DNA of 64,000 nucleotides. Source: Propioniciclava tarda (GTDB taxonomy: Bacteria > Actinomycetota > Actinomycetes > Propionibacteriales > Propionibacteriaceae). Where the stretch lies: the NCBI RefSeq assembly GCF_900182665.1, contig NZ_FXTL01000004.1, positions 62,001 to 126,000 on the forward strand, in the 5' to 3' direction. Position numbers and translations under genes: made by a program. The notes under the pieces are model-generated. The model made no database searches, had not been told where the DNA came from, and saw only the letters and a program-made list of their open reading frames with translations. Shown here one piece after another: positions 45,297-63,237 of the stretch (position 1 is its first letter; each line of letters begins with the position of its first letter).

Positions 45297-46787
45297 TCAG
45301 GCCTCGGACTGCTTGGCAGCCTCGATCATCTCGGCCTCGGTGTTGTGAGCGCCGTTGAAGAAGAAGTTCAGGCCGACGGCCACGATCGAAGCCAGCAGGA
45401 TGCCGGAGTCGACCATCGGGTGGATCTGGGCGGGCATCCACTGCTTGAAGTCGGGGGCGATGAGCGGAATCATGCCGAAGCCGACGGAGACGGCGACGAT
45501 GAACGGGTTGAACCGGTTCTTGAAGTCGACGCCCGCGAGGATGCGGATACCGGTCGCCGCGACCATGCCGAACATGACCAGGCCGGCGCCACCGAGGACG
45601 GCGGTGGGCAGCGCGGCGACGATGGCGCCCATCTTCGGCACGAGCCCGAGGATCAGCAGGATGATGCCGCCGGTGATGGTGACCCAACGGGACTTGATGC
45701 CGGTCACGCCCACCAGGCCGACGTTCTGGGAGAACGACGTGTAGGGGAACGTGTTGAAGATGCCACCGATGAGGGTGCCGAGGCCGTCGGTGCGCAGACC
45801 GGCGGACAGCATCGGCTGGGTGACCTTGCGTCCGGTCATCTCGCCCAGGGCGAGGAACATGCCCGTGGACTCGATCATGACGACGATCATGACGATGGTC
45901 ATCGTGAGGATCATGACGATGTCGAAGACCGGCACCCCGAAGTGGAACGGCATGATCAGGGCGAACCAGTCGGCCTTCATGACGTTGTCGAACTTCATCA
46001 TGCCCGTGGCAGCGGCCACGATGGCGCCGATCACGATGCCGATGAGGACGGCGACGTTGGCCAGGAAGCCCTTACCGAAGCGCGAGATGATCAGGATGAT
46101 CGCCAGGACGAGGGCTGACATGCCGATGCCGGCGGCAGAGGCGTAGGCCGGGTTCATCATGGTGGCTGCCGGGGCGAAGCCCTTGGGCAGCTCGGGGATG
46201 CCGGGGGTGGCCTTGGCAGCCTCGACCCACTTGGCCCAGTCGGGGTTGACCATCTTGGACGTGACGGCGGACGACGGAGCGAAGATCCAGCCGATGCCGA
46301 TCTTCATCAGCGAGACGCCGATGACGAGGATGATCGTGCCGGTCACGACCGGCGGGAAGAACCGGATCAGGCGGCTGACCAACGGGGCGATGATCATCGC
46401 GATGACGCCGGCGCCGATGATCGTGCCGAACAGGAGCCGTGCGCCCTGGGCGCCCGGGTTGGCGGCGGTGATGGCCAGCATCGGGCTGACGGAGGCGAAC
46501 GTGACGCCCATCATGACGGGCAGCTTGATGCCGAACCACTGCGAGGCGCCGAGCGACTGAATGATCGTGACGATGCCACAGGCGAACAGGTCGGCGGAGA
46601 CCAGGAATGCGATGTCCTGGGGGCTCAGCTTGAGCGCGTTTCCGACGATGAACGGCACGGCCACGGCGCCGGCGTACATGACGAGAACGTGCTGAAGGCC
46701 AAGGGTGATGAGTCGGGGTACTGGAAGGATCTCGTCGACAGGTTCGACCTGCTTCGAGACCGGTGCTTCAACGGTAGACACCTGCAT
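45297..46787 (-). CDS. NCS2 nucleobase permease (xanthine/uracil family)
   Basis: A 496-residue proton-coupled nucleobase importer with 14 membrane segments. The first helix opens ITLGLQHVLVMYAGAVAVPF, the core has PVMMGVTFASVSPMLA, and the substrate-region glutamate lies in MIESTGMFLALGEMTGRKV. The NAT signature region reads FSQNVGLVGVTGIKSRWV (Q-N-x-G). This places it with xanthine/uric acid-type carriers (COG2233) rather than uracil UraA. The ATG at 46787 (MQVSTVEAPVS) is the better start than an upstream ATG at 46904. Codon and motif use differ from neighbours: not one GGACGCC/GGCGTCC is present in the whole gene. Confidence 0.92.
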   Translation of the reverse strand: MQVSTVEAPVSKQVEPVDEILPVPRLITLGLQHVLVMYAGAVAVPFIVGNALKLSPQDIAFLVSADLFACGIVTIIQSLGASQWFGIKLPVMMGVTFASVSPMLAITAANPGAQGARLLFGTIIGAGVIAMIIAPLVSRLIRFFPPVVTGTIILVIGVSLMKIGIGWIFAPSSAVTSKMVNPDWAKWVEAAKATPGIPELPKGFAPAATMMNPAYASAAGIGMSALVLAIILIISRFGKGFLANVAVLIGIVIGAIVAAATGMMKFDNVMKADWFALIMPFHFGVPVFDIVMILTMTIVMIVVMIESTGMFLALGEMTGRKVTQPMLSAGLRTDGLGTLIGGIFNTFPYTSFSQNVGLVGVTGIKSRWVTITGGIILLILGLVPKMGAIVAALPTAVLGGAGLVMFGMVAATGIRILAGVDFKNRFNPFIVAVSVGFGMIPLIAPDFKQWMPAQIHPMVDSGILLASIVAVGLNFFFNGAHNTEAEMIEAAKQSEA

Positions 46788-46907
46788 TCTCCATCTTTGC
46801 TGGTGTGGGCAGGCAGCTGATCGTCCAACACGTTGGGGCAGCTGACGCCACAGGCTTTGTCGAGTTCCCGAGTTGGCCTTCTCAACAACGTTGCCTTGAG
46901 ACATGGT

Positions 46908-47249: not shown

Positions 47250-48746
47250 CTAGTGGTCGGCGTCCACCAGGGTCTTGAGCTGGTCCTCGGTGACGGCGCG
47301 GGCCGGCGCGTGGGCGTCCGTGACGTGGACGCCGGACGTGTCCGACTTGCCCCACACGTTGAACGCCAGGTTCAGCACGAAGGCCACGAGGGCGGCCGAG
47401 CTGATGCCGGAGTCGAGGACGGTCGAAAGGGCGTCCGGTAGCCGATGCCAGAAGCCGGGCAGGACCACCGGCAGCAGGCCGAACCCGAGGGACGCCGCCA
47501 CGATCAGCAGGTTGTTGTTGCCGTCGTAATTGACCTTGCCGAGGCTGCGGATGCCGGACGCGGCGACGGTGCCGAACAGGACGATCCCGACGCCGCCGAG
47601 GACCGGGGTGGGCAGCGCGCCGATGATGGCGGCGAGCCAGGGCGACAGGCCGAGCACGGCGAGGATGCCGCCGCCGACCGCGACGACCCAGCGGCTCTTG
47701 ATGCCGGACAGGGCGACCAGGCCGACGTTCTGGGCGAACGCGGTGGCGGGGAAGGTATTCATGACCGGCGCGAGGACGCAGGAGAGCATGTCGGCGCGCA
47801 GGCCGTTGGCGACGCGCTTGGAGTCCACCTCGGTGCCCACCACGGTGCCCACGGCGAGGATGTCGGCGGTCGTCTCGACCATGATCACGATCAGGACGAT
47901 GACCATCGAGACGATCGCGCCCACCTCGAAGATCGGCAGTCCGAACGCGAACGGACGCGGCACGTCAACCGGCAGCTTGCCCGCGAAGGACGGCGCCTTG
48001 ATCATCCCGGACGTCGGTGATATGAAGTTCCAGATGACGGCGAGCAGGGTGCCCGCGACGAGGCCCAGCAGGATCGCCATCCGGGCCAGCCGCTTGATCA
48101 TCGACAGGCCGAGGGTGATCGCGAGGGTCAGCAGCGCGAGGACGATGTTGTTGGGGTTGCCGAAGGCGGGATTGCTGACGAGCTTGCCGTCCACGACGAC
48201 CTGCGCGGGCATGGAGCCGACGATCCACTTGCCGGCGGCGGGCACGAGCGACAGGCCGATGACGGCGATGATCGAGCCGGTGACCACAGGCGGGAAGAAC
48301 CGGATCACCTGCGCGAAGAACGGCACGATGACCAGGGCGACCAGGCCGGCGACGATCACCGAGCCGAACGCCATCCGCAGCCCAGTGACGCCGCCACCCT
48401 TGGCGATGATCGCCGTCAGCGTCGACACGGACGCGAACGAGATGCCCTGGACGAGCGGGAGCTGCGAGCCGAAGCCGACGGGGGTCTTCGTGAAGACGCC
48501 GACCGTCTGCAGGATCGTCGCCAGCCCGCTGAACAGGATCGCCGACGACACGAGCAGCGCGTTCTCGGCCGGGCTCAGGCCGGCCGCGCCGCCCACGATC
48601 AGGGGCACGGCGATGACGCCGCCGAACATCGACAGGATGTGCTGGAGGCCGTAGACGATGCTGTCGCCCACGCTCAGGCGCTCGTCCTCGGGTCGTGTCG
48701 TGCCAACCGGGGTGGGTTCTTGCTTGCTGCGTCCACGAGCGGACAT
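47250..48746 (-). CDS. NCS2 nucleobase permease (xanthine/urate type)
   Basis: A 498-residue NCS2/NAT carrier with 14 membrane segments, a distant paralogue of the previous gene. The first helix has IVYGLQHILSMFGGVIAVPL, the substrate-site glutamate is in MVETTADILAVGTVVGTEV, and the NAT region reads FAQNVGLVALSGIKSRWV. It imports a purine such as xanthine or urate into the cell. ATG 48746 has an AAAGGAGA ribosome site; an ATG 18 bases upstream is less favoured. Upstream is an AT-rich, palindrome-containing promoter. Being next to the xanthine dehydrogenase locus, it plausibly supplies its substrate. Confidence 0.93.
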   Translation of the reverse strand: MSARGRSKQEPTPVGTTRPEDERLSVGDSIVYGLQHILSMFGGVIAVPLIVGGAAGLSPAENALLVSSAILFSGLATILQTVGVFTKTPVGFGSQLPLVQGISFASVSTLTAIIAKGGGVTGLRMAFGSVIVAGLVALVIVPFFAQVIRFFPPVVTGSIIAVIGLSLVPAAGKWIVGSMPAQVVVDGKLVSNPAFGNPNNIVLALLTLAITLGLSMIKRLARMAILLGLVAGTLLAVIWNFISPTSGMIKAPSFAGKLPVDVPRPFAFGLPIFEVGAIVSMVIVLIVIMVETTADILAVGTVVGTEVDSKRVANGLRADMLSCVLAPVMNTFPATAFAQNVGLVALSGIKSRWVVAVGGGILAVLGLSPWLAAIIGALPTPVLGGVGIVLFGTVAASGIRSLGKVNYDGNNNLLIVAASLGFGLLPVVLPGFWHRLPDALSTVLDSGISSAALVAFVLNLAFNVWGKSDTSGVHVTDAHAPARAVTEDQLKTLVDADH

Positions 48747-48787
48747 CGAGTCTCCTTTGATCACCAGCCGCTGGTTCCAACTTCGGC

Positions 48788-49182: not shown

Positions 49183-50310
49183 ATGGGAACCGCACGCCTC
49201 GTCCTCAACCCCTACGTCGACCGCGACCATGTGAAGGCCCCGGTCTTCACCAGCGCCAGCTTCCACAAGTCGATCCCGGGCTTCGTGCCCACGCCCCTGC
49301 GCGAGGCGGAGGAGGCGGCGAAGATCCTCGGCGTCCGGTCGGTGTGGGTGAAGGACGAGTCGACGCGCCTCGGAATGCCGGCCTTCAAGATCCTCGGGGC
49401 GTCCTGGGCGACGTACCGCGCGCTGATGAAGCACCTCGGGCTGCCCGAGCACAAGAAGCCCACGATGGCGAAGCTGAAGAAGGCGGTCGCCGAGTCCGGA
49501 CGCGAGCTCGCGCTGGTCGCCGCCACGGACGGCAACCACGGACGCGCCGTCGCCCGCATGGCCCGCGACATGGGGCTACCGTGCACGATCTTCGTGCCCC
49601 AAGGCACGGTGAAGAGCCGCATCAAGGCGATCGCGCGCAACGGCTGCGAGGTGATCGTCGCTGACGGCAACTACGACGAGGCCATCGAGCGCGCCGCCGC
49701 CCTGGCGGACGATACGACCGTCGTGATCCAGGACACGTCCTGGGAGGGCTACACCGAGGTCCCCGACTGGATCATCGACGGCTACCAGACGATGATGAAA
49801 GAGGTCATCGACCTCATCGACGAGGAACTCACGCCCGAGCCGTCCGTCGTGGTGGCGCAGATGGGCGTCGGCGCCTTCAGTGCCGCGGTCGCGGCGGCGT
49901 TCGCCCACCGCCCGGCGCGGCTGCTGGTCGGCGCCGAGCCGACCGTCGCCGACTGCCTCACCACCAGCATCGAGAACGGCGGCCAGCTGACCGTCATCGA
50001 CGAGACCCCGTACACGTCGATGGCCGGCCTCAACTGCGGGACGCCGTCCGACCTGGCCTGGATGACCAACCGGTCCGCGTTCAACGCCTTCGCCACCGTC
50101 GAAGACGCCGACGCCGAAGAGGCGACGCGCGTCCTGCACGAGGACTGGATCGAGTCCGGCGAGTCCGGCGCCGCCGGCCTAGCCGCCCTGCTGCGCTGGG
50201 GCAAGGACCTCGGGCTGCGCGCCGACGACGATGTGCTGGTCTTCGTCACCGAGGGCGTCACCGATCCGATCAACTTCGCCCGCATCATCGGCCCGGAGTC
50301 GGCTGACTGA
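49183..50310 (+). CDS. dpaL: Diaminopropionate ammonia-lyase-like PLP enzyme (YgeX type)
   Basis: A 375-residue fold-type II PLP enzyme. The PLP lysine lies in GMPAFKILGASWA, the pattern of diaminopropionate ammonia-lyase (threonine synthase and serine dehydratase differ here). The cofactor asparagine loop is AATDGNHGRAVARMA, and QDTSWEGYTEVPDWIIDGY is a YgeX hallmark. It would split 2,3-diaminopropionate to pyruvate and two ammonia. In E. coli ygeX sits in the purine/selenium gene region beside xdh and ssnA, so its place here next to a selenium-type xanthine dehydrogenase supports a role in purine-derived amino acid breakdown. No strong ribosome site is seen; ATG 49183 opens the conserved N-terminus. 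Confidence 0.75.
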   Translation: MGTARLVLNPYVDRDHVKAPVFTSASFHKSIPGFVPTPLREAEEAAKILGVRSVWVKDESTRLGMPAFKILGASWATYRALMKHLGLPEHKKPTMAKLKKAVAESGRELALVAATDGNHGRAVARMARDMGLPCTIFVPQGTVKSRIKAIARNGCEVIVADGNYDEAIERAAALADDTTVVIQDTSWEGYTEVPDWIIDGYQTMMKEVIDLIDEELTPEPSVVVAQMGVGAFSAAVAAAFAHRPARLLVGAEPTVADCLTTSIENGGQLTVIDETPYTSMAGLNCGTPSDLAWMTNRSAFNAFATVEDADAEEATRVLHEDWIESGESGAAGLAALLRWGKDLGLRADDDVLVFVTEGVTDPINFARIIGPESAD

Positions 50311-50618: not shown

Positions 50619-51041
50619 CTAACTGGGTGACCCGAACTCCGGGAAGTGCTCGGCGAACAGGACGTCGACCGCGGCGTCCACCTCGTGGCTGAAGCGGGCG
50701 AAGCGGTGCAGGAGCGTCCGGCACTCGGGGGTCAGGGACGCGCGGCCGCCGCCCACGCCGCCCTGCTGGCGGGTGACGCAGACGAAGCCCAGCTCGTTCT
50801 CGAGCGTGTGGATGAGCCGCCAGCCCTTCGTGTACGACAGCCCGATCGTGGCGCAGGCGCTCTTGACCGAGCCGGACGCGTCCACGGCGTGGAGCAGTTG
50901 CACGACCCCGGGCCCCAAGAAGCGGGACGCCGACCCGAGCAGCACGGTCTTCGCCTGCGCCCGGACCACGCGCGCGCCGGCGTCCGACGAAACGCCAAAG
51001 GGCGAGGCAACAGCCTCGCCCTCGACGTCGAACTCAGCCAT
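50619..51041 (-). CDS. ModE-like winged-helix regulator without effector domain
   Basis: A 140-residue protein whose body is the LysR-like winged helix of ModE: FLGPGVVQLLHAVDASGSVKS, SYTKGWRLIHTLENELGFV, then a glycine-rich wing QQGGVGGGRASLTPECRTLL. The molybdate-binding (TOBE) domains of full ModE are absent, so it may bind DNA constitutively or sense molybdate through a partner. ATG 51041 follows the xanthine dehydrogenase stop by 31 bases, so it is the last gene of that operon. It is the likely regulator of the molybdenum hydroxylase locus. Confidence 0.85.
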   Translation of the reverse strand: MAEFDVEGEAVASPFGVSSDAGARVVRAQAKTVLLGSASRFLGPGVVQLLHAVDASGSVKSACATIGLSYTKGWRLIHTLENELGFVCVTRQQGGVGGGRASLTPECRTLLHRFARFSHEVDAAVDVLFAEHFPEFGSPS

Positions 51042-51072
51042 ACCGCAGAGCCTAAGCCCCGTGGCGTCCGGA

Positions 51073-53727
51073 CTAGCGGTTCTTCTTCGGACGGTAGAAG
51101 GTGCCCTCCAGCGGCAGCTTCGTGCGCCACTCGCCGTCGAACAGGTAGTAGGCCTCCTGCGCGGCCGGCGCGACCAGGCAGCAGACGATCTCGCCGATGC
51201 CCTTGGCGCCGTAGGCCGGGTCGTCGTACGTGCCGCGGTTGACGAAGATCGTCTCGACCGGCGGCATCTGATTGGCCTTGACCAGTCCGAGCTGGGCGAG
51301 CTTCTGATCCGGGACGCCGTTGGTGTAGGTGAAGTTCTCGGTGAGCGCGTAGCCGATACCCATCGCGATGCCGCCGACGACCTGGCCCTCGGCTGCGGGC
51401 GGGTTGATGATCGTGCCCGAGTCGTGGGCCGCAATGATCTTGAGCATCTCGCCCGTCTCGGCGCTGATCACGACCAGCTGGGTGCCGTAGGCATAGCTGA
51501 TGTGGCTCACCGGGTTCGGCTTGTCGGACGTGATCGGGTCGGTCTCGGCGTCGAACTCGCCGTGGTAGATCTTGCCGTTCAGATCGTCGAGGGACGCCCC
51601 GGCGTCCAAGTCCGCCTTGAGCTGCAGGCCTGCGATGCGGGCCGCCTGGCCGGTGAACACCGTCTGCCTGGACGCCGTGGTCGTGCCCGCGTTCGGCGAG
51701 TAGGTCGTATCGGGCATGGTGTAAACGAGCTTGTCAACGGACAGTCCGGTGGACTCAGCGGCCATCTGGACGACCACCGTCGCGACGCCCTGGCCGATGC
51801 CGGCCGCGGACGACCGGACCTCAACCTTGCCGTCCACGACGGCCAGGTCACAGCGGCCCGGATCCTTCAGGCCGACGCCGACGCCGGCGTTCTTGAGCCC
51901 GCAGGCGATGCCCACGTGGACGGACGGGTCGGCCGCGTACGCGTAGTAGGCGTCCTTGACGGCGTCCAGGGTCTCGACGAGCGCGGCGTCGTCGCCGACG
52001 ATCTGGCCGTTGGGCAGCTCGAGCCCCGGACGGATCGCGTTGCGGTAGCGGATCTCGAAGGCGTCGATCCCGACCTTGCGGGCCAGCTCGTTCAGCAGCG
52101 GCTCGATCGCGGCGGCCGACTGGGTGACTCCGAAGCCGCGGAACGCGCCGGCGGGCGGGTTGTTGGTGTAGACCGCGTCGCCGACGATGTCGACGTTCGT
52201 GTAGTTGTAGGGGCCACCGAGGTGGGTGCAGGCGCGCTGCAGGACGGGTCCGCCGAGGGAGCCGTACGCGCCCGTGTCGGAGACGACCTTGGCCTGCATG
52301 GCGTGCAGGATGCCGTCCGCGTCGCAGCCGAGCTTGATGTCGATCTTCATCGCGTGGCGCTTGGGGTGGTAGTTCAGCGAGTCGGTGCGGTCGAACTTGA
52401 CCTTGACCGGACGCTTCACCAGGAAAGCGGCGAGCGCAGCCTGGTGCTGGACCGACATGTCCTCCTTGCCGCCGAAGCCGCCGCCGACCCACGCGGACCG
52501 GATGCGCACCTTGTCCATCGGGATGCCCAGGTAGTCGCTGACCTCGTGGTACTCGTCGTAGATGCCCTGGCCGCCGGAGATCACCATGATCCCGTCGTCG
52601 CCCTGCGGAATGCCGATCGCGGCCTCGGTCTCCATGAACGCGTGCTCCTGCGGCGGAAGATCCCAGGACGCCTCCGCGAAGTGGACGCACTTGGCGAAGC
52701 CGGCCTCGACGTCGCCACGCTTGACGACCTCGTGGTCGAAGACGTTGGACGTCGGCTCGATCCAGCGTCCGAACTGCTTGTAGCCCTCGCCGTGGATCAG
52801 GTGCGCGCCCTCCGCGAGCGCCTCTTCGGGCGTGTTCAGCGGGGGCAGCTCGTCGTAGTCGATCTTGACGGCGTCCGCGGCCGCGAGGGCCTGGTCGAGG
52901 GTCTCGGCGATCACGAGGGCGACCGAGTCGCCCTTCATCTTGGTCTCCTCGCCGACGGCGATCATGCCGGGCCAGTCCTTCGCGAGGTGGCCGATGTAGC
53001 GGGAGCCGGGGATATCGGACGCCGTGAGGATGCGTACGACGCCGGGCATCTTCTCGGCCTCGGACGTGTCGATGCCCTTGATCAGCGCGCGGGCGCAGGG
53101 GCTGAAGACGTTGCGGCCATGGATCAGGCCCTCGACCTCGATGTCGTCGACGTACTCGGCGGTGCCGAGGGTCTTGGCGTAGGAGTCGACGCGGTGCAGG
53201 TTCGTGCCGATGCCGCCCGCGGTGGTCGGGGCGGGGATCGGGGCGCCCGTGCGCTTCATCTCGGCGTAGTCGAGGATGGCGTCCTCGATCTGCTGGTAGC
53301 CGGTGCAGCGGCAGATGTTGGTGCGGATCGCGAACTTGACCTCGTCGCGGGTCGGCTCGGGCTTGGCGTCCACGAGGCCCTTCGCCGAGACGACCATGCC
53401 GGGGATGCAGAAGCCGCACTGCGTGGCGCCGTGCTTGGCAAATGAGTACTCGAACAATTCCTTCTCGCGCTGCTCGAAGCCCTCGATCGTGATGATCTTC
53501 TTGCCGACCAGGCGCTTCGTGCGCTGCGTGCAGGCCCGGACCACCTTGCCGTCGACGAGCACCATGCACGTGCCGCAGGCGCCCTGGTTGCAGCCGTCCT
53601 TGGCCGACTTGATGCCGAGCCGCTCGCGCAGGACGACGAGGAGGTCGAGGTCCTCGGCGAAGTCGTGGTCGACGCCGTTGATGTTCAGGGTGAAGACCTG
53701 GGTGGGGGTCTCGGCGGCTGTCGTCAT
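51073..53727 (-). CDS. Selenium-type xanthine dehydrogenase (fused 2Fe-2S / molybdopterin chain)
   Basis: An 884-residue molybdenum hydroxylase, probably oxidising xanthine or a related purine. Residues 1-165 hold two [2Fe-2S] domains: Cys46, 51, 54 and 66, then Cys104, 107, 139 and 141 in QCGFCIPG and ICRCTGY. Residues about 175-884 are the Mo-pterin part, with GGFGGKE, the substrate-site arginine in GAFRGFGVTQ, and the catalytic glutamate in GAKGIGEIVCC. No FAD chain is encoded. This two-domain fusion, about 850-950 long, is the layout of the selenium-dependent XDH family (as I remember it, TIGR03311) and E. coli XdhD. All selenium-maturation genes lie directly upstream on the same strand. 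AGAAGGG precedes ATG 53727. Confidence 0.93.
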   Translation of the reverse strand: MTTAAETPTQVFTLNINGVDHDFAEDLDLLVVLRERLGIKSAKDGCNQGACGTCMVLVDGKVVRACTQRTKRLVGKKIITIEGFEQREKELFEYSFAKHGATQCGFCIPGMVVSAKGLVDAKPEPTRDEVKFAIRTNICRCTGYQQIEDAILDYAEMKRTGAPIPAPTTAGGIGTNLHRVDSYAKTLGTAEYVDDIEVEGLIHGRNVFSPCARALIKGIDTSEAEKMPGVVRILTASDIPGSRYIGHLAKDWPGMIAVGEETKMKGDSVALVIAETLDQALAAADAVKIDYDELPPLNTPEEALAEGAHLIHGEGYKQFGRWIEPTSNVFDHEVVKRGDVEAGFAKCVHFAEASWDLPPQEHAFMETEAAIGIPQGDDGIMVISGGQGIYDEYHEVSDYLGIPMDKVRIRSAWVGGGFGGKEDMSVQHQAALAAFLVKRPVKVKFDRTDSLNYHPKRHAMKIDIKLGCDADGILHAMQAKVVSDTGAYGSLGGPVLQRACTHLGGPYNYTNVDIVGDAVYTNNPPAGAFRGFGVTQSAAAIEPLLNELARKVGIDAFEIRYRNAIRPGLELPNGQIVGDDAALVETLDAVKDAYYAYAADPSVHVGIACGLKNAGVGVGLKDPGRCDLAVVDGKVEVRSSAAGIGQGVATVVVQMAAESTGLSVDKLVYTMPDTTYSPNAGTTTASRQTVFTGQAARIAGLQLKADLDAGASLDDLNGKIYHGEFDAETDPITSDKPNPVSHISYAYGTQLVVISAETGEMLKIIAAHDSGTIINPPAAEGQVVGGIAMGIGYALTENFTYTNGVPDQKLAQLGLVKANQMPPVETIFVNRGTYDDPAYGAKGIGEIVCCLVAPAAQEAYYLFDGEWRTKLPLEGTFYRPKKNR

Positions 53728-54067
53728 TGATCTGGCCCTTCTCGCGTCACGATGTCGGTCGCCGTTTGCTGATCAGCTTGGACGGCGTCCCCGGGGTCGG
53801 ACGGTCCGGATTCCCCAGCGATACCGGCGAGGGATACGGACACTCCTGCTCAGGTAAAGGATACCTAGGCGAAAGTATCCGGGGGTCCGTCTAGGGAAAT
53901 CAGCGAATCACACGTCGAAGGCACTCGGTAGCGGGTGTCGACCGACCACGATTCGGCCGGTGAGGTCGCCGGACCTGCCGCATGGTGCGCTCCTGACTGG
54001 TCAGCGCATCCGGCCGGGAGACCCCACCGGCGGACGGTGCGCGCGCGAGGTGCTCGGTCGAGTCCGC
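53728..54067 (-). promoter_or_regulatory. Promoter region of the xanthine dehydrogenase gene
   Basis: A 340-bp gap inside the selenium locus. GGATAC (53859-53864) and GTATCC (53875-53880) form an inverted pair with a 10-bp spacer; another GGATAC is at 53832-53837. These suggest xdh has its own regulated promoter. The rest of the gap shows nothing convincing. Confidence 0.45.
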
Positions 54068-55069
54068 TCACAGCCGCTCGAACAGCACTCGGACGCGTCC
54101 GCCGCAGATCATGCCCAGCTCGGCGCCCTGGGCGTTGGAGAGTTCGTAGTCCTGGACGCCGACGCCCTGGGCGTCCGGGTCGGCCAGCAGGGCCAGCGCG
54201 TGCGCGATGGACTCGGCCTCGATGGGCCCGCCGCCGACGGAGCCGGCGACCGGCCCGGAGGCGTCCACCAGCATGCGGCTGCCGGCACCGCGCGGGACCG
54301 AGCCGCCGTGGCCGACGATCGTGGCGAGCACGGCCGGACGTCCGGCGGCGGCTGCCAACGCACGGATTCCGGTGGCGACGTTCGGGTCGAACGACCTCGC
54401 ACCCGACCGCGCCCGCACCTGGATGATCTCGGCCGCGATCGCGACGGCGATCTCGGCCGGCTCGCGTCCGCCGAGCTCGAGTCCGATCGGGGCGCGGAGC
54501 CGCGCGACGGCGTCCGGAGAGATGCCCTGCGACGTCAGGGCCGCGCGCACCGTGGCGCACTTGCCGCGCGAGCCGATCATGCCGACGTACTCGGACGGGC
54601 GGGCGAGGCAGGCGGCGGCGGCTTCGCGGTCCATGCGGTGGCCCGGGGTGACCAGGACGTAGCAGGCGTTGCCGTAGGGCGGCAGCGCGGCGAGCGTGGT
54701 GCCGTAGTCGCCGCAGAGGACCTCGGCGACGCCGGGGAGGCGCGCTGGGTCGGCGAACTCCGGACGCTCATCGACGACGATCACCCGGAAACCCAGCAGG
54801 ACGCCCAGGTGCGCGACCGCCACCCCGACGTGACCGGCGCCGGCGATGACGAGGTGCGGAGTCCCCTTGAGGGTCTCGACGAAGACGAGGTCGCCGCCGA
54901 CGTCGCGGCACGCCGAGCCCAAGCCGGTGACGGGTTGGCCGGGGGCGTCCGTGGTTGGGTCCCAGGGGTCGTGAGCGCCGGTGCGGGCGCCGGACAGGTA
55001 GTGGATCCGGGAATCCTCGCCCGCGGCCGCGATGCGGTCGAGCAGGGCGACGTAGTCGTTGCGGTTCAT
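54068..55069 (-). CDS. XdhC/CoxI-family maturation protein with swapped domain order
   Basis: A 333-residue XdhC-type protein. These deliver and sulfurate (or here perhaps selenate) the molybdenum cofactor of hydroxylases. Usually the CoxI-like domain is N-terminal and the Rossmann domain C-terminal. Here the Rossmann part comes first (HLVIAGAGHVGVAVAHL, VIVVDERPEFADPARL, about residues 68-110) and the CoxI signatures come last (GHGGSVPRGAGSRMLVD, GSVGGGPIEAE, MICGGRVRVLFE at the very end). ATG 55069 has an AAGGGAGCC site. It is 13 bp downstream of yqeC, clearly in the same operon, and just upstream of the hydroxylase it would mature. Confidence 0.9.
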   Translation of the reverse strand: MNRNDYVALLDRIAAAGEDSRIHYLSGARTGAHDPWDPTTDAPGQPVTGLGSACRDVGGDLVFVETLKGTPHLVIAGAGHVGVAVAHLGVLLGFRVIVVDERPEFADPARLPGVAEVLCGDYGTTLAALPPYGNACYVLVTPGHRMDREAAAACLARPSEYVGMIGSRGKCATVRAALTSQGISPDAVARLRAPIGLELGGREPAEIAVAIAAEIIQVRARSGARSFDPNVATGIRALAAAAGRPAVLATIVGHGGSVPRGAGSRMLVDASGPVAGSVGGGPIEAESIAHALALLADPDAQGVGVQDYELSNAQGAELGMICGGRVRVLFERL

Positions 55070-55082
55070 GCTGGCTCCCTTG

Positions 55083-56054
55083 TCAGATGGGGTTTCGGTT
55101 CGATGCCAGCAGCACCAGCTCACCGGGGAGGTAGGCGGCGAGTTCGCGTCCGAGGTGGTCGAGGTGGGCGTCGTCGGCCTGATTGAGGACGACCGCGCGG
55201 CGGCCCACCCAGGTGGCCAGCCGCGGGTTGTCGAGATAGCCGGCCTTGATCAGGGACGCCGCCAGTTGGGGGGTGAGGAGCTCTGCTCCGGGATCGTGAC
55301 TGGGTGCCGAGCGTCCCGGGTTTCCGGGACGTTGAGCACCCAGATCGACGGTTTCCAGGATCCGGGACGCCTCGTCGAGCCGGCAGCAGACCTCGGCCAG
55401 GGGGCGTCCGAGGGCGGTGAGGCCGACGACGATCAGCAGCACGTCGGTGGCCTCCGGCACCACCGGCTCGTGCGCGGCCGGCACCTTGAACGGCAGGCGC
55501 CGGCTGCCGTCGCCCTCGATGACCGTGAGATCGGCGGCCCTGATGAGTCGGTTGAGGTCGGACGCCTCGGGTCCGGTGAACTTGTCGTCGGCGACCTCGC
55601 GTCCGACGACGATCACGAACCCGGTTTTGGTGACTCTCAGTGAGGCTTCCGACGCGGCTTGGGGCTCGACGGTGTTCGTGAGGGGGACGACATCCGGGTT
55701 GGGTGTTGGAGTCGCCGGTCCTGGGGTGACCAACCCGGTTTTGGTCTCTCTCAGTGTGGCGTCGGGCGCTGCTGGGGGCTCGACGGTGTTCATGAGAGTG
55801 ACGAAGACCGGGTTGAGCGTGGCGAGCGCGAGGTCGACGTCGGTGATCAGCGCCGGTTCGCGGACCATGTGGGTGGTCGTGGTGAGCAGGACGCGTCGCC
55901 CCCGCGCGGACGCCTCGTCGGCGAGCGCGTTTATCAGCGACGTCTTGCCCCCGGCGCCGACGGCGGTGATGACGCGTGCGCCCGGCAAGAGGTCCAGCAG
56001 CGGACGCCGCGTCGGATCGTCAGGCGTCCAACCGAAAGTAGGCGTTGTCGACAA
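55083..56054 (-). CDS. yqeC: Selenium cofactor biosynthesis protein YqeC with palindromic insertions
   Basis: A 323-residue protein of the YqeC family, part of the labile-selenium cofactor pathway of molybdenum hydroxylases. The P-loop is VGAGGKTSLINALA; the family core continues in REVADDKFTG, VIEGDGSRRLPFKVPAAHEP and a C-terminal VVLNQADDAHLDHLGREL. YqeC is usually about 220-260 residues. The excess here is about 66 codons between TDVDLALA and VIVVGREV, encoded by two family B palindromes (55618-55700, 55731-55815), plus about 15 codons from a family A palindrome (55300-55343). All stay in frame. The first codons overlap the DUF3343 gene by 35 bp. Confidence 0.9.
   Translation of the reverse strand: MSTTPTFGWTPDDPTRRPLLDLLPGARVITAVGAGGKTSLINALADEASARGRRVLLTTTTHMVREPALITDVDLALATLNPVFVTLMNTVEPPAAPDATLRETKTGLVTPGPATPTPNPDVVPLTNTVEPQAASEASLRVTKTGFVIVVGREVADDKFTGPEASDLNRLIRAADLTVIEGDGSRRLPFKVPAAHEPVVPEATDVLLIVVGLTALGRPLAEVCCRLDEASRILETVDLGAQRPGNPGRSAPSHDPGAELLTPQLAASLIKAGYLDNPRLATWVGRRAVVLNQADDAHLDHLGRELAAYLPGELVLLASNRNPI
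55300..55343. repeat. Palindromic element, family A, inside yqeC
   Basis: A 44-bp palindrome, CTGGGTGC at one end and GCACCCAG at the other with an inner CGTCCCGG/CCGGGACG stem. It aligns over its full length with 61400-61443 and 27976-28023. It is translated in frame as part of YqeC (…LGAQRPGNPGRSAPSH…). Confidence 0.75.
55618..55700. repeat. Dispersed palindromic element, family B, inside yqeC (copy 4)
   Basis: An 83-bp element, AACCCGGTTTTGGTGACTCT to CGACATCCGGGTT, inserted in frame in yqeC. Translated on the minus strand it gives NPDVVPLTNTVEPQAASEAS and a few more residues. Confidence 0.85.
55731..55815. repeat. Dispersed palindromic element, family B, inside yqeC (copy 5)
   Basis: An 85-bp element, CAACCCGGTTTTGGTCTCTC to GACGAAGACCGGGTTG, 30 bp from copy 4 and in the same orientation. 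It contributes NPVFVTLMNTVEPPAAPDAT to YqeC. The two copies give the protein an internal repeat (NTVEP…LR.TKTG). Confidence 0.85.
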
Positions 56055-56268
56055 ACCGATACACCCCCTCGTGACGCATGCCCGCTACGGCGGCCAGCAG
56101 CTCCACCGCTGAGCCGGACGGCAGCTTCCACGCCAGCCCGCACGTCGCCGCGATCCCGGTCGGTAGCGGGATCAAGCGCCCCGGCAGCCCGGCCGCGCGT
56201 GCGGCGTCCTCGAACGCGAACGCGTCCAGGGTCGAGCCGAAGGTGACGACGATCGCACCGGCGTCCAT
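56020..56268 (-). CDS. DUF3343 putative Se/S carrier-like protein
   Basis: An 82-residue small protein of the DUF3343 type, found with selenium and sulfur trafficking genes. Typical are the opening IVVTFGSTLDAFAFEDAARA, the GLPGRLIPLPTGIAATCG strand with the single conserved cysteine (Cys43) that could carry Se or S, and a closing YRFVDNAYF. It is encoded between the cysteine desulfurase (28 bp upstream) and yqeC (35-bp overlap). This suggests hand-over of selenium or sulfur from the desulfurase toward the YqeB/YqeC step; that path is inference. Confidence 0.85.
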   Translation of the reverse strand: MDAGAIVVTFGSTLDAFAFEDAARAAGLPGRLIPLPTGIAATCGLAWKLPSGSAVELLAAVAGMRHEGVYRFVDNAYFRLDA

Positions 56269-56296
56269 CAGAAATCCCCGCGGCGGCTCGTGACCA

Positions 56297-57433
56297 TCAC
56301 AGGCCCGCGATCTCGCGGACGGCGGCCAGGGCGGTGTCGACGTCGGCGTGCGAGGTCAGGTGGCTGGGGCTGAACCGGACCATCCCGGACGCCTCCGTGC
56401 CGCAGCGGCGATGGACGAGCGGCGCGCAGTGGAAGCCACCCCGAACGGCGATGCCGCGCTGGGCGAGGGCGTCCGCGACGTCGGCGACGTCGAGGGGCTG
56501 GCCGGCGGCGTCCAGGATCAGCCCCGACACCACCGGGACACCCCAGGCGTCGGCGTCGACGTCGGGGGTCCAGAAGCGTCCGGACGCCACGAGCCCATCC
56601 CGCAGCCGGCGCGCTTGGGTGAGGGCACGGGCCAGGTGCGTGCCGCCCGCAGAGAGAACGACGTCGAGGGATGCCGCCAGCCCGGCGAGCCCGGGCACGT
56701 TCGGCGTGCCGGCCTCCAAGGCCTCGGGGAGGGCGGCCGGCATGGACTCGTTGAACGTGTCCTCGCCGGTGCCGCCGACCTCGAACGGCCGCGGTCGGAC
56801 GCCGTCGCCCAGGACGAGAAGGCCGGTGCCCGCGGGCCCGAGGAGGGACTTGTGGCCGCCGGTTGCGAGGGCCGCAAGGGGGGTCTGGGTGAAGTCGAGG
56901 GGGAGGAGTCCAGCGGTCTGGGCGGCGTCGACGATCAGGTGAATGCCCTGGTGGACGCAGAGTTGAGCGATCGCGTCGATCGGTTGCACGGTGCCGAGGA
57001 CGTTCGAGGCGTGGCCGATCGCCACCAGCCGAGTCGACGGACGCAGGGCCGCGGCGACGGCGTCCGGGCTGATGACCCCGCGCTCGGATCGGACGATCGT
57101 CAGCTCGACCCCGCGGGCCCGGGCCGCGTACAGCGGACGCAGCACCGAGTTGTGTTCGAGGTCGGTGGTGATCGCGTGGTCGCCGGGGTTGAGGAGTCCG
57201 GCGATCGCGAGGTTGAGGCCGTGGGTGGCGCTGTGGGTGAGGATCACCCGCTCGGGTGCGGCCCCGAACAGCCGCGCGGCCCGGGTCCGGACGCGCAACA
57301 GGATACGTCCGGCATCGAGGGCCTGGTCGTGCGCGCCGCGTCCGGGATTGCCGGCGCCCAGGGCCGCGGTCATCGCCTCGGCGACGCCGGGGGCTTTCGG
57401 CCAGGACGTGGCCGCGTTGTCGAGGTAGATCAT
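56297..57433 (-). CDS. Class V cysteine desulfurase of the selenium/molybdenum type
   Basis: A 378-residue PLP enzyme that removes S (or Se) from cysteine (selenocysteine) onto an active-site cysteine. The PLP lysine lies in ALATGGHKSLLGPAGTGLLV, and the catalytic cysteine in RGGFHCAPLVHRRCGT has the SufS-like context. It belongs to the branch found in Se/Mo-hydroxylase clusters (the group I recall as EF2568-like). With SelD nearby, its likely task is to release selenide from selenocysteine for selenophosphate synthesis, or to feed the DUF3343 carrier. ATG 57433 (MIYLDNAATSWPK) is the family start; the upstream extension is noncoding. It lies 64 bp after yqeB. Confidence 0.92.
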   Translation of the reverse strand: MIYLDNAATSWPKAPGVAEAMTAALGAGNPGRGAHDQALDAGRILLRVRTRAARLFGAAPERVILTHSATHGLNLAIAGLLNPGDHAITTDLEHNSVLRPLYAARARGVELTIVRSERGVISPDAVAAALRPSTRLVAIGHASNVLGTVQPIDAIAQLCVHQGIHLIVDAAQTAGLLPLDFTQTPLAALATGGHKSLLGPAGTGLLVLGDGVRPRPFEVGGTGEDTFNESMPAALPEALEAGTPNVPGLAGLAASLDVVLSAGGTHLARALTQARRLRDGLVASGRFWTPDVDADAWGVPVVSGLILDAAGQPLDVADVADALAQRGIAVRGGFHCAPLVHRRCGTEASGMVRFSPSHLTSHADVDTALAAVREIAGL

Positions 57434-57497
57434 CGGACGCCTCGCAGGCTTGGTCCCTCGGCGGGGGGCACGGGGGTCGGGATGCTCATGGCGACCG

Positions 57498-58478
57498 TCA
57501 AACCCTGGCTGCTGGCCAGCGGCCGCTCGCCATGAGTCCCTGGAGCACGGCGTCCAACGCCCCACCGCCGACGGCACGGGACTTGTCGGAGATGGTGTCC
57601 ACCGAGGACGCGAGTTCCACGCGTGGATCGACGTCGGCGATCTTCATGCCCGCGTGCACGCGCGCGCCGTCCGGGATCATCCCGCGGATCACCCCAGCGA
57701 TCGCTGCCCGGACCTCAGGGGGACGGTGAGGTCTCCCGGCCGCGGCGGATTGCCTGCCGTAAGAGGGGATATCGCCCGGTCCGGCGACGCCACCGTCTTG
57801 AGGCTCATCGTCGGCCTCGATCAGACACACCACCTCGTCGGCCTCGACGACGTCGCCGATGCCGCGGACCACCCGAACCACCCCAGACGCCGGCGCATGC
57901 AGCACGCGCTCCTTGGCGCGTCCGGCGATCAAACCCGGGATGCCGGTGTTGGGCAGCGCGGGACCGTCTCCGATGACGCGTCCGAGCTCGTGGCCGCGCA
58001 TGGTCTCGATGACGTAGTGGCAGTCGACTCCCGCGGTGAACCCCGGCCCGAGCCCGACCACCACGGGTGCCATCTCGATGGTGGTGCCCACGTTGCGCTT
58101 GGCCAGCACGGCGTCCACGACCGCCCACGGCCGGACCTCCCCCAGCAGCGCACCCTCGGGGTCGACCAGAACCGGTACCTGCCACCCGCTCCACGTGTGA
58201 CTTTGTTGGCGACGACCCGACGAAAGTCGCACGTGGGACTCGGCGAGCACCCCGGACGCCTCCGCCCAGGACGCGACTCGGACGCCCTCCAGGTCCTCGA
58301 CCACCCACCGGGCCTCGCGCACGGCCGTCGCCAGCGCCGCCCGCCACCGAATCGCCATCGGCTCGGCCGTCTCGAGCGCGACCACGGCGAACCCGGCGTG
58401 CACCAGCTTCTGGATCACCCCGGTCGCGATGTCGCCGGCCCCGCGGACGACAACGAGTCCCGGCACCTCAACCGTCAT
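57498..58478 (-). CDS. yqeB: Selenium-dependent molybdenum hydroxylase maturation protein YqeB
   Basis: A 326-residue YqeB-family protein, one of the markers, with yqeC and an orphan selD, of selenium use as a molybdenum hydroxylase cofactor. It starts VVRGAGDIATGVIQKLVHAG (Rossmann-like) and continues ETAEPMAIRWRAALATAVRE, then GLGPGFTAGVDCHYVIETMRGHELG with a candidate active cysteine. The C-terminal half is a biotinyl-like barrel (VLHAPASGVVRVVRGIGDVVEADEVV). Its ATG overlaps the yedF stop (ATGA). About 16 residues near 80-100 (SHVRLSSGRRQQSHTW) are encoded by a 49-bp family C palindrome and look inserted. Confidence 0.92.
   Translation of the reverse strand: MTVEVPGLVVVRGAGDIATGVIQKLVHAGFAVVALETAEPMAIRWRAALATAVREARWVVEDLEGVRVASWAEASGVLAESHVRLSSGRRQQSHTWSGWQVPVLVDPEGALLGEVRPWAVVDAVLAKRNVGTTIEMAPVVVGLGPGFTAGVDCHYVIETMRGHELGRVIGDGPALPNTGIPGLIAGRAKERVLHAPASGVVRVVRGIGDVVEADEVVCLIEADDEPQDGGVAGPGDIPSYGRQSAAAGRPHRPPEVRAAIAGVIRGMIPDGARVHAGMKIADVDPRVELASSVDTISDKSRAVGGGALDAVLQGLMASGRWPAARV
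58190..58238. repeat. Palindromic element, family C, inside yqeB
   Basis: A 49-bp imperfect palindrome, TCCACGTGTGACTTTG at the left and GAAAGTCGCACGTGGGA at the right. Its reverse complement aligns end-to-end without gaps with 9098-9146 (about three quarters identical). It is translated in frame. Confidence 0.8.
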
Positions 58479-59077
58479 GGCTTGATGATGAGATCTGCCG
58501 CGCTGAGGATCTCGACGATCGTGTACATGTTCGACACCCCGCCGACCGCCAGCTTGTCGCCGAGCCCGTAGTGGTTCAGGCAGGTGCCGCACGTGAGCAC
58601 CTGGACGCCGGCGTCCTCGAGCCGCTTGAGGTCCTCGATCGACTCCGAGCCCTCGGTCGTCAGGTAAGCGCCGCCGTTGTAGAAGAGCACCGAGTCGGGC
58701 CACGCGTCCGCCTCGGTGAGCGCGTACAGGAACCCCTTCAGCAGCGTCGCGCCCAGGCGCTCGTCGCCTTCGCCCATGGTCCGGGACGACACTGCGACCA
58801 CCCGCACCTTCCGTCCGGACGCCGCCGGCGCACCCTCAGCGGAACCGGCGGCGTCGGCGTCTGGGCTGGTCAGCTGGACGCGGAACTCGCCCGGGGCGTC
58901 CGAGCCGCGCACGAAGCCATAGCCGCGCTGGGACGCGAACTTCGCCAGGTTCTCGACCGAGGTCGGGTTGTCGACGATGACCTCGAACGTCGTGCCGGGC
59001 GCGGAGGCTTCGAGCGCCTTCTTCGTCTCGATCACGGGGATCGGGCAGGACTTTCCGGTGAGGTCCAGGGTCTGCAT
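58475..59077 (-). CDS. yedF: Selenium metabolism protein YedF (TusA + DsrE-like)
   Basis: A 200-residue two-domain protein. Residues 1-72 form a TusA/SirA-like domain with the sulfur-relay cysteine in GKSCPIPVIETKKAL (Cys11). Residues about 90-200 form a DsrE-like domain (VVAVSSRTMGEGDERLGATL) with a CGTC pair in VLTCGTCLNHYGLGDKL. YedF proteins associate with selD and are thought to deliver selenium to selenophosphate synthase. It lies between selD (11 bp upstream) and yqeB (overlapping), in one transcription unit. ATG 59077 has a GAAAGGCACGCC site. Confidence 0.93.
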   Translation of the reverse strand: MQTLDLTGKSCPIPVIETKKALEASAPGTTFEVIVDNPTSVENLAKFASQRGYGFVRGSDAPGEFRVQLTSPDADAAGSAEGAPAASGRKVRVVAVSSRTMGEGDERLGATLLKGFLYALTEADAWPDSVLFYNGGAYLTTEGSESIEDLKRLEDAGVQVLTCGTCLNHYGLGDKLAVGGVSNMYTIVEILSAADLIIKP

Positions 59078-59088
59078 GGCGTGCCTTT

Positions 59089-60132
59089 CTATCGGACCAG
59101 GATCGTGTGCTCGGCCCGCTCGGTGACGGTCCCGATGATGGACGCCGCGAGTCGCGTCCCGCTGGCGGCGCGGTCGTCGGCCAGGGCGGCGACGTACGCG
59201 TCGGCGTCCGGACGGGGCATCGCGACCAGCAGGCCACCGGACGTTTGCGCGTCGAACAGCACCTCCTGGACGCCGAAGGGGACGCGGTCGAAGACGAGCC
59301 CGTTCGCCTCGGCGTGGGTGCGGTTGCGTTGGGCGGCGGCGGTGAGGAAGAAGCCTTCGGCCAGCGTCCGGACGTGCGGGATCAGGGGCAGCGCGAGGGT
59401 GTCGATAGTGGCGCTGAAGTCGGTGCCGAGCATCTCGAGGAGGTGGCCGGCGAGTCCGAATCCGGTGACGTCAGTGACGGCGTGCGGGGTCTGGAGGAGT
59501 TCGGCGGCGCGCAGGTTGAGCTCGGTCATGGACGCGACGGCCGCCTCGAAGGCGCCGGGCGGGGCCGAGTCGAGGCGGTGCGCGGCGCAGGCGATGCCGA
59601 CGCCGAGGGGCTTGGTCAGGACGAGCGCGTCGCCCGGCTGCGGGGTGTCGTTGCGCCACAGGTGGCGCGGGTCGACGGTGCCCGTGACGCTCAGCCCGTA
59701 CAGGACGCCGTCGCCGGTGATCGAATGCCCGCCCGCGAGCGAGGCGCCGGCCGCGGCGACCCGCTCGGCGCCCCCCGCCAGGATCGCGCCCAGTTGGTTG
59801 AGGTCGCCGTCCTCATCGAAGGCCACGATGTTGAGCGCCGTGCGGACGCGTCCGCCCATGGCCCACACGTCACTCATCGCGTTGGCCGCTGCGATCTGGC
59901 CGAACGTGTACGGGTCGGCCACGACGGGCGGGAAGAAGTCGAGGGTGCTGACGACCGCTAGGTCGTCGGTGAGGCGCAGCACGGCGGCGTCGTCGGACGA
60001 GGCGAAGCCCACCAGGAGGTCAGGGTCGGTGGGGGCGGGAAGCTGCGACAGCACCCGCGAGAGCGCGCGGGGGCCGAGCTTGGCCGTGCATCCGCCGCCG
60101 GAGCAGAACAGTGGCGCGATGGTCGCGTCCAT
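59089..60132 (-). CDS. selD: Selenophosphate synthase
   Basis: A 347-residue SelD, making selenophosphate from selenide and ATP. The N-terminal catalytic loop is FCSGGGCTAKLGP with Cys15 and Lys18 in the positions of E. coli Cys17 and Lys20. The family core VSTLDFFPPVVADPYTFGQI, AAANAMSDVWAMGG and AGGHSITGDGVLYGL is complete. It uses Cys, not selenocysteine, so no recoding is needed. No selA, selB or tRNA-Sec is present in the window; with yqeB and yqeC adjacent this looks like the selD of the cofactor trait. ATG 60132 has a GGGAGGAGGACGC site. It is the first gene of the locus. Confidence 0.97.
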   Translation of the reverse strand: MDATIAPLFCSGGGCTAKLGPRALSRVLSQLPAPTDPDLLVGFASSDDAAVLRLTDDLAVVSTLDFFPPVVADPYTFGQIAAANAMSDVWAMGGRVRTALNIVAFDEDGDLNQLGAILAGGAERVAAAGASLAGGHSITGDGVLYGLSVTGTVDPRHLWRNDTPQPGDALVLTKPLGVGIACAAHRLDSAPPGAFEAAVASMTELNLRAAELLQTPHAVTDVTGFGLAGHLLEMLGTDFSATIDTLALPLIPHVRTLAEGFFLTAAAQRNRTHAEANGLVFDRVPFGVQEVLFDAQTSGGLLVAMPRPDADAYVAALADDRAASGTRLAASIIGTVTERAEHTILVR

Positions 60133-60222: not shown

Positions 60223-61341
60223 GTGCTACTCGACAAATCGGGGACAGGGCGGTGGTCGATGGCTGAATCGGGGCGAATTCGCCCTCAACCCGGCATCGGG
60301 AACCACGCTGCACCGAGATCCGATCGCGACGGTCCGGGTGCGGGGCCGGTGCAGGGGTCGGACGCCGATGCGGTCCCCGACGCGGCCTGGCTCGACACCA
60401 TCGAGGACGCCGCCGCCGGGGCCGACGTCCTGCTCGGGATGCCGGTGGCGGGCTTCCACGCCGGCTCGGCCGCGCTCGCCGTGGGCGCGACCAGGGTGTT
60501 CGGGGTCCTGCAACCGTTCGAGCCGACCCGCGACTTCCCGCCCGCCGGACTCGGGCTGCGTCGCGTGCCGCGGTGGCTGAATCGTCCGCTGGGGAGGTTC
60601 GTCGAGTCCCTGGCTTGGCGGGTCGCGGGGCCGCCGCTCAACAAGGCCCGCCGCGCGAGGGGACAGCCGCCCATCGGAGATCCCATCCGTGGCCAGCGCA
60701 TGCTGTGCGGCTGGTCACCGACCCTGCTGACCGCGCCGGACGACTGGCCCGCCGACCGCTTCACGGTCACCGGGGCGTGGCGGCTGCCACCCGACTCGGG
60801 CTGGCGTCCGGACGCCGATCTGACGACCTTTCTGGACGCCGGCGAGCCCCCGATCTACCTCGGCTTCGGGTCGATGCCGCCCATCTCGGGCATGGACCGC
60901 CTGCTCCGCACCCTTCTCGACGGCCTCGTCGGACGCCGCATCCTGGTGTCGGCCGGCTGGGCCGAGCTGGGCTCAACCGCGCTGCCATCAGGGGTCTTGC
61001 GCATCGGACCCGTCCCGCACGAGTGGCTGTTCCCGCGCTGCGCCGCGATCATCCACCACTGCGGCGCCGGCACGACGCACGCGGCGGCGGCGTCCGGGGT
61101 GCCGTCGATCCCGGTTCCGTTCACGCTGGACCAGCCCTTCTGGGCCGGACGCCTCCGGGCCGTCGGCATCGGCTCGCGTCCCCTGGATCCCCGTCGACCC
61201 CGTTCGGACGCCGTCGCCGCGGCCCTGGCTGAGGTCGAGTCTGCGGCGATGCGTGAGCGAGCCCGGGAGGTGGCCGAGGCCATGGCGTCCGAGGATGGCG
61301 TCCGGGTCGCGGTCGCGGCGATCGAGGCGCTCGTCGCCTGA
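60223..61341 (+). pseudogene. UDP-glycosyltransferase (GT1-type), N-terminally truncated
   Basis: An open frame of 372 codons whose C-terminal two thirds is a GT1/MGT-type glycosyltransferase. It has PPIYLGFGSMPPISGMDRL, LVSAGWAEL, the nucleotide-sugar site VPHEWLFPRCAAIIHHCGAGTTHAAAASGVPSI, and DQPFWAGRLRAVGIG. The acceptor domain is incomplete: the usual opening strand (…GSRGDVQPFLAL…GH.V) and about 80-100 residues are missing, and the first 50 codons have no sense as protein. It is either a pseudogene or a gene with a start further in. It is divergent from selD; any link to selenosugar chemistry is unsupported. Confidence 0.65.
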
Positions 61342-61399: not shown

Positions 61400-61443
61400 C
61401 TGAGTGCTGAACGTTTCGGATGTCCGACACATCGAGCACTCAG
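61400..61443. repeat. Palindromic element, family A, copy 3
   Basis: A 44-bp palindrome beginning CTGAGTGCTGAACGTTTCGG and ending GAGCACTCAG, nearly the same as 27976-28023. It lies between the glycosyltransferase remnant and the glycerol-1-phosphate dehydrogenase gene. Confidence 0.85.
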
Positions 61444-63103: not shown

Positions 63104-63120
63104 ACGCCCGCGCTCGGGAA

Positions 63121-63203: not shown

Positions 63204-63237
63204 AAGCCGATGCGCGGTCCCGGGAGGGTGCGGAGGG

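Follow-up and report, generated by a model that had tools for sequence, protein, structure and literature searches.

The use of selenium as a cofactor that depends on SelD, YqeB and YqeC was described in 2008 (Haft and Self, PMC2276186; Zhang et al., PMC2432076; all papers cited here are represented by excerpts). The excerpt of Zhang et al. places selD beside yqeB and yqeC in 5 organisms, all with an orphan SelD, and describes a labile 75Se species held in a protein of E. faecalis, also with orphan SelD (PMC2432076). In C. difficile, selD and yqeB mutants grew poorly on xanthine and urate, according to excerpts of a later report (PMC11448449).

We analyzed 64,000 nucleotides (the window; contig 4, 62001-126000) of the genome of Propioniciclava tarda (2.97 Mb, 40 contigs, rated 100% complete). 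As in the third selenium trait of the 2008 papers, selD lies beside yqeB and yqeC, and a molybdenum hydroxylase with XdhC is nearby; the difference is that this genome still holds a tRNA-Sec and pieces of selA, selB and fdhA. Judging from the protein families, the locus is quite likely a selenium-cofactor operon dedicated to production and maturation of a single selenium-dependent xanthine dehydrogenase (XDH). An earlier note on this DNA had assigned the locus to the third selenium trait, and both family membership and a matching operon in E. faecalis support that assignment.

Gene content and unusual proteins of the operon

Nine genes were found on the minus strand at 50619-60132, in the order given by the earlier note, by their reading frames and profile scores:

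59089..60132, minus strand: selD, selenide water dikinase, first gene of the run; 347 aa; TIGR00476 347 bits (cut-off 125)
58475..59077, minus strand: yedF, TusA-DsrE sulfurtransferase-like selenium protein; 200 aa; TIGR03527 202 bits (cut-off 110); PF01206, PF02635
57498..58478, minus strand: yqeB; 326 aa; TIGR03309 278 bits (cut-off 220); start overlaps the yedF end by 4 nt; predicted biotinyl/lipoyl-like C-terminal domain
56297..57433, minus strand: cysteine desulfurase/selenocysteine lyase-like protein; 378 aa; TIGR01977 318 bits (below cut-off 377); PF00266 over cut-off
56020..56268, minus strand: Se/S carrier (DUF3343); 82 aa; PF11823 53 bits (cut-off 25); Cys in common with genus-mate G128 in the alignment
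55083..56054, minus strand: yqeC; 323 aa; GAGGKTS near the start; TTG start overlaps the carrier gene; TIGR03172 134 bits (cut-off 73); PF19842
54068..55069, minus strand: xdhC; 333 aa; circularly permuted, Rossmann domain (PF13478) first and XdhC_CoxI (PF02625) last
53728..54067, minus strand: gap between xdhC and xdh; 340 nt, without recognized promoter or RNA family
51073..53727, minus strand: xdh, selenium-dependent xanthine dehydrogenase; 884 aa; 2Fe-2S/2Fe-2S/Mo, no FAD domain; TIGR03311 1134.6 bits (cut-off 830.45)
50619..51041, minus strand: ModE-like DNA-binding protein; 140 aa; TIGR00637 56 bits (below cut-off 98.5)

Start codons of yqeB (58478), desulfurase (57433), xdhC (55069) and modE (51041) were picked from the reading frames and comparison with G128, which has the nine genes in the same order. 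Six of the nine proteins (SelD, YedF, YqeB, Se/S carrier, YqeC and selenium-dependent XDH) exceeded specific curated cut-offs; the desulfurase, XdhC and ModE were clear matches, yet fell under NCBIfam cut-offs. The desulfurase reached 243 bits against the model of the selenocysteine lyase SclA (cut-off 525) and is therefore termed desulfurase/lyase-like only, and XdhC remained below both whole-protein models (235 bits, cut-off 350; 144 bits, cut-off 162). With general Pfam cut-offs, the desulfurase (PF00266) and XdhC (PF13478 and PF02625) passed and ModE passed none. Distances between consecutive genes were 11, -4, 64, 28, -35, 13, 340 and 31 nt; thus, the short gaps or overlaps described earlier hold for seven junctions but not for that between xdhC and xdh. 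Neither Rfam families (0 matches up to E 1 in 48.7-61.0 kb) nor sigma-70-like promoters (50.3-60.7 kb) were found, and terminator-like sites in the latter region (2, against a shuffle mean of 2.5) were not in excess. Codon-wise comparison of the nine genes with G128 gave dN/dS values from 0.21 (selD) to 0.58 (xdhC), indicating selection on the proteins.

All motifs of the nine genes had also been described as intact. The yqeB and yqeC frames are indeed open, but both genes carry in-frame inserts that are missing from G128, several of which are dispersed repeats:

58182..58238, minus strand: yqeB insert 1; in frame; gap in the G128 orthologue; dispersed repeat, 82% over 50 nt to window 9098-9146
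57717..57812, minus strand: yqeB insert 2; in frame, within the lipoyl-like domain hairpin; gap in the G128 orthologue; short dispersed matches only
55629..55820, minus strand: yqeC insert; in frame; holds repeat copies (families D7 and D9); gap in G128 and Austwickia
55300..55345, no strand assigned: further yqeC repeat (family D10); in frame; also found at 27978-28023 and 61400-61445; absent from G128 and Austwickia

Dispersed repeats of short length, some of which end in inverted repeats, were observed inside yqeB and yqeC (55300-55345, 55615-55820 and 58182-58238) and also outside the operon (window positions 9098-9146, 14829-14872, 27978-28023, 61400-61445 and 63074-63217). In-frame palindromic elements occur in Rickettsia, and the repeats in yqeB and yqeC are much like them; a literature search for such elements in Rickettsia together with Propionibacter found nothing. 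A tandem repeat of a 27-nt unit, in about six copies, is present at window 33705-33913. The inserts raise the question of whether the operon itself is decaying, that is, whether they broke maturation so that XDH runs on sulfur or not at all. Their absence from G128 (for the yqeC inserts, also from Austwickia) is in line with decay, as are the dN/dS values of yqeC and xdhC, the highest of the run (0.48 and 0.58). However, the inserts preserve the frame, both proteins still score above their family cut-offs and YqeB retains its conserved residues, among them RG and K..(D/E)(V/I)DPR; we regard decay as highly improbable. A selenium-cofactor operon remains the preferred reading.

Two proteins of this operon have unusual architectures. 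XdhC was circularly permuted, with the Rossmann domain before XdhC_CoxI, in all three loci of the window type (the window, G128 and Austwickia), and a literature search for XdhC together with circular permutation found nothing. The permuted form is a natural experiment on which XdhC domain has to adjoin which partner. For YqeB, modeling predicted a biotinyl/lipoyl fold of the C-terminal domain; the whole-protein model was poor (mean pLDDT 50.1), its usable part being only about residues 181-240. A likeness of YqeB to AccB was already pointed out by Johnstone and Self, as an excerpt indicates (PMC11448449). Lys was present in the hairpin in 4 of 23 YqeB sequences and was never located between two Met, so there is no conserved biotin or lipoate lysine; a lipoyl-like domain of this kind narrows the guess that YqeB carries or presents a cofactor. 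When solved structures were searched by sequence, YqeB had nothing beyond one lipoyl match at E 0.14 and YqeC had none up to E 1.

Xanthine dehydrogenase and probable purine use

The window XDH shares 79% identity with that of G128, 66% with Austwickia and 49.5% with E. faecalis. Its closest solved relative by score was the single-chain Desulfovibrio aldehyde oxidoreductase (1sij/1vlb; phmmer 369 bits, query residues 14-849), which likewise has 2Fe-2S and Mo domains in one chain; unlike XDH, it oxidizes aldehydes. Because XDH has no FAD domain and is built like this enzyme, its electron acceptor is probably a soluble electron carrier. The proposal of the earlier note that the single-chain XDH is the selenoenzyme gains support from the TIGR03311 equivalog and from the matching E. 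faecalis operon, in which xdh is annotated as selenium-dependent xanthine dehydrogenase, and we infer that the window enzyme carries selenium.

On the basis of the families present, the desulfurase/lyase-like enzyme would act on an amino acid to release selenium (or sulfur), the freed selenium would be held by YedF and the small Se/S carrier, and SelD would convert it to selenophosphate. XdhC would hold the molybdenum cofactor, completed by a MocA-like transferase encoded elsewhere; YqeB and YqeC would assist in attaching selenium to molybdenum, after which the cofactor would enter apo-XDH. The enzyme may oxidize xanthine, or run from urate to xanthine, with electrons passing through two 2Fe-2S clusters to a soluble carrier without an FAD subunit.

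The two purine permeases and the YgeX-type lyase noted previously next to the operon were also recognized by profiles:

49183..50310, plus strand: ygeX-like diaminopropionate ammonia-lyase family protein; NF006058 320 bits (cut-off 276); TIGR03528 256 bits (below cut-off 532); same neighbor in G128, 83%
47250..48764, minus strand: xanthine/uracil permease family transporter; TIGR03173 411 bits (just below cut-off 414); TIGR00801 and PF00860 over cut-off
45297..46904, minus strand: xanthine permease, pbuX-type; TIGR03173 498 bits (cut-off 414)

These three genes fit purine use, as far as their families tell, and G128 keeps the position of the lyase and one permease beside the operon.

A MocA-type protein and an FAD subunit had been reported missing from the window; candidates for both are present elsewhere in the genome. 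Contig 19 encodes a fusion protein, an NTP transferase with a ModE-type DNA-binding domain at its C terminus (L095:10217-11161), a MocA-like candidate that scored 112 bits, below the NF045665 cut-off of 315. It clusters with XdhA (1124 bits, cut-off 780), XdhB (378 bits, cut-off 310) and two guanine deaminases; an FAD subunit lies beside XdhA, and an Fe-S subunit is visible by XdhA/XdhB from its reading frame alone. Contig 16 encodes a two-subunit XDH and contig 7 a 978-aa molybdenum hydroxylase that matched the TIGR03313/TIGR03312 pair below cut-off; FAD-domain proteins occur on both contigs. The idea that the organism has neither an FAD subunit nor a MocA-like protein was rejected, given these candidates on other contigs (the MocA-like one below cut-off).

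With at least three other molybdenum hydroxylases (contigs 7, 16 and 19) that could use selenium or oxidize purines, the assignment to a single enzyme is weakened, and the selenium of the operon might instead go mainly to one or more of them (XdhAB(C) of contig 19 or the 978-aa enzyme of contig 7), the neighboring XDH being one client among others. We consider this unlikely. Inside the run, the only such enzyme is Se_dep_XDH, in both genus members as well as in E. faecalis, and Se_dep_XDH is an equivalog defined for selenium dependence. The evidence pointing to other clients includes the contig 19 cluster, with XdhA and XdhB over their cut-offs beside two guanine deaminases and the NTP transferase/ModE fusion, and the sub-threshold TIGR03313/TIGR03312 match of the contig 7 enzyme. 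To our knowledge, E. coli has no single-chain XDH. Its yqeB and yqeC occur with xdhABC and ygfKMN genes, as given in an excerpt of Haft and Self (PMC2276186). For the 75Se-labeled protein of E. faecalis, the excerpt of Zhang et al. states 30 kDa, which does not match the size of XDH (PMC2432076), and a C. difficile yqeC deletion showed no obvious phenotype in the portion of PMC11448449 at hand; the former suggests another client, and both count against an operon for selenium-dependent XDH, as do the sub-threshold NCBIfam scores of desulfurase, XdhC and ModE. Nevertheless, maturation of the neighboring XDH remains the preferred function of the operon.

Selenocysteine genes elsewhere in the genome

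The earlier note had called selD an orphan and proposed a genome-wide search for selA, selB and tRNA-Sec. A tRNA-Sec was found (66.5 bits, cut-off 47; anticodon TCA) and was recognized as a complete tRNA. Beside it, on contig 1 (410 kb), are the remains of selA, selB and formate dehydrogenase, with the joins described below at about 336.9-342.9 kb; for these remains the whole locus of genus-mate G126 (fdhA, fdhB, fdhC, selD, tRNA-Sec, selA, selB and fdhD) served as reference; G126 fdhA has one in-frame TGA, at codon 186. In P. tarda, selA keeps 61% of its length and selB 27%, and the two remnants abut: selA residues 1-267 of 439 run into selB residues 425-586, and the reading frame changes within the selB part. 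Missing are the lysine of selA SGDKLLGG (residue 280), which we take to be the PLP lysine, and the GTPase part of selB. In fdhA, residues 3-407 adjoin residues 1013-1072 directly, a loss of ~605 codons that leaves the in-frame TGA in place; only residues 23-80 of fdhB are left, and fdhD is whole. Neither fdhC nor a Sec-type selD was found in the 19-kb stretch of this locus. The interval from the fdhB piece to tRNA-Sec contains fragments with matches to a glycosyltransferase and to a LysR-type regulator. An EryCIII-like glycosyltransferase C-terminal domain is matched both by the gene beside selD in the window (60223-61341) and by a piece in the broken formate dehydrogenase locus (L019:8581-9732).

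No second copy of selA or selB was detected in the whole genome: PF03841 and PF09107 matched contig 1 only, and the eight TIGR00475 matches, all below cut-off, were read as GTPases of other kinds (such as EF-Tu, IF-2 and CysN), judged by length and, for two of the eight, also by sequence. MnmH/YbbB (tRNA 2-selenouridine synthase) gave one 24-residue match in this genome (25.6 bits, cut-off 219.75). A tRNA-Sec alone was rejected as a sign of a working selenocysteine system, since selA and selB are gutted. Thus, although tRNA-Sec, partial selA and selB and a TGA-containing fdhA exist on another contig, the gutting of selA, selB, fdhA and fdhB makes SelD look like an orphan in function. From gene content, it is without another user among the selenium traits searched (selenocysteine genes and MnmH) and most likely serves only the window operon.

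In the family, 32 genomes had a tRNA-Sec or SelB match, of which 31 were read (all except G144). In 25 of the 31, selA and selB were each at least 95% covered (G117 selB over two frames). Sec genes of G134, G129, G113 and G074 were cut or split by contig ends, and G103 had only a tRNA-Sec on an 8-kb contig; P. tarda alone of the 31 had selA and selB broken internally. The lowest three tRNA-Sec scores of 31 were those of P. tarda (66.5), G103 (67.4) and G144 (67.8), all without a whole SelB match, and the contig-cut G134 scored 76. The tRNA-Sec genes without SelB wing match (G103:C455:1930-2023 and G144:C26:6781-6872) may be further relics or assembly gaps. G128 showed neither tRNA-Sec nor a SelB wing match.

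Compared with G126, the remains of fdhA and selA had dN/dS values of 0.34 and 0.35, similar to intact relatives (0.18-0.40), suggesting that either the loss of selenocysteine was recent or the assembly is at fault. In the latter case, the gutting of selA, selB and fdhA would be artificial, the living cell would decode selenocysteine and SelD would serve both traits. The damage itself argues otherwise: it comprises several separate losses, the frame change in selB and unrelated gene pieces between fdhB and tRNA-Sec, on a 410-kb contig whose 19-kb stretch is free of N, and the lost selA and selB pieces occur nowhere else in the assembly. While the substitution pattern of the remaining fdhA and selA pieces is of the coding type seen in intact relatives, the short selB remnants (0.53 and 0.74) are above controls; similarly, the tRNA-Sec is recognized as complete, but its score is the lowest of 31 in the family. 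The shortened fdhA, in frame apart from the TGA, also fits an assembly fault. Repeats provided a weak argument against it, lost sequence being beyond such a check: of the 14-mers repeated between positions 6.9 and 12.95 kb of the 19-kb stretch, none lay at the fdhA or selA/selB joins, although one was located 22 nt beyond the fdhB remnant. An assembly fault is therefore the less likely explanation, one that we consider improbable, and we infer a genuine, recent loss of selenocysteine decoding.

The window SelD is about 80-81% identical to that of G128 and 48% to that of E. faecalis. In a SelD tree, from which Sec-locus matches shorter than 250 residues were omitted, the SelDs of the window, G128 and three yqeB loci of the phylum were split by a 100/100 branch from 25 Sec-locus SelDs of the family. 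However, the kin of the window SelD is unsure because of a tool warning of long branches and because the SelD of locus L131, located 8 kb from yqeB, is nearer to G126 by identity (52%, against 46% to the window). We tentatively propose, with slightly less than even confidence, a trait swap caught part-way: a lineage with a selenocysteine formate dehydrogenase and its own selD may have taken in a complete selenium-cofactor operon with a different selD, after which the selenocysteine genes decayed and tRNA-Sec became spare. The operon would then be a distinct actinomycete type marked by the permuted XdhC.

Distribution and comparison with known systems

Within the family, 2 of 198 genomes had a YqeB over its cut-off (P. 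tarda and G128, both in a genus of 13); the same was true in 1 of 394 genomes sampled from the class (P. tarda itself) and in 16 of 396 sampled from the phylum, P. tarda included (22 at E up to 1e-15). YqeB loci were read in 20 of the 21 other phylum genomes (all except G787); 14 of these were over the YqeB cut-off, and 13 of the 14 had yqeC and xdhC nearby. No neighboring gene in any of the 20 had the window XDH as its best tblastn match; that in L134 was XdhA-type. Six lone YqeB-like genes (L135-L140; 27-34% identity) perhaps form a subfamily with another role; below the YqeB cut-off and with no partner genes near, they were not counted as selenium-cofactor loci. The window, G128 and Austwickia formed one group (100/99) in a midpoint-rooted tree of 23 YqeB rows. 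The Austwickia chelonae locus (NZ_BAGZ01000001) resembles the window in its adjoining xdh (66%), yqeB, yqeC and permuted xdhC, but selD, yedF, desulfurase and carrier were not found within its 22.6-kb stretch. As judged from these surveys, the operon is rare near the studied organism. It is of a known kind, and the genome around it seems to have had its selenocysteine system gutted recently.

The selenium-cofactor operon of E. faecalis (EF_2563-EF_2582 region; plasmid pCF3A-343-2, NZ_CP142821.1) likewise has an HTH regulator, xdhC, xdh, selenocysteine lyase, selD, yedF, DUF3343, yqeC and yqeB in one run, with a permease and diaminopropionate ammonia-lyase near and no FAD subunit beside XDH. 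Operon and purine genes are located together on a 139.5-kb plasmid record (L170, NZ_CP142821.1). Unlike the window, E. faecalis has mocA within the run, which is followed by a flavodoxin gene, and ygfK, hydA, ygeY, ygeW and arcC are also near; gene order differs, and its XdhC domains are in the usual order whereas those of the window are permuted. YqeB is 40% identical between the two, and the E. faecalis DUF3343 had no tblastn match to the window carrier at 1e-3. Because all nine genes, together with mocA, form a single run in E. faecalis, the window locus appears to be a further member of the selenium-cofactor trait, and the value that the earlier note placed on a complete nine-gene set does not extend to its being the first. 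What is new here is the permuted XdhC, the predicted biotinyl/lipoyl fold of YqeB without a conserved lysine, and the in-frame inserts of yqeB and yqeC. With selenocysteine decoding apparently dead, selD and yqeB phenotypes could be read without selenoprotein interference in an organism that has most selenium-cofactor parts in one run, an interference-free advantage that E. faecalis already offers.
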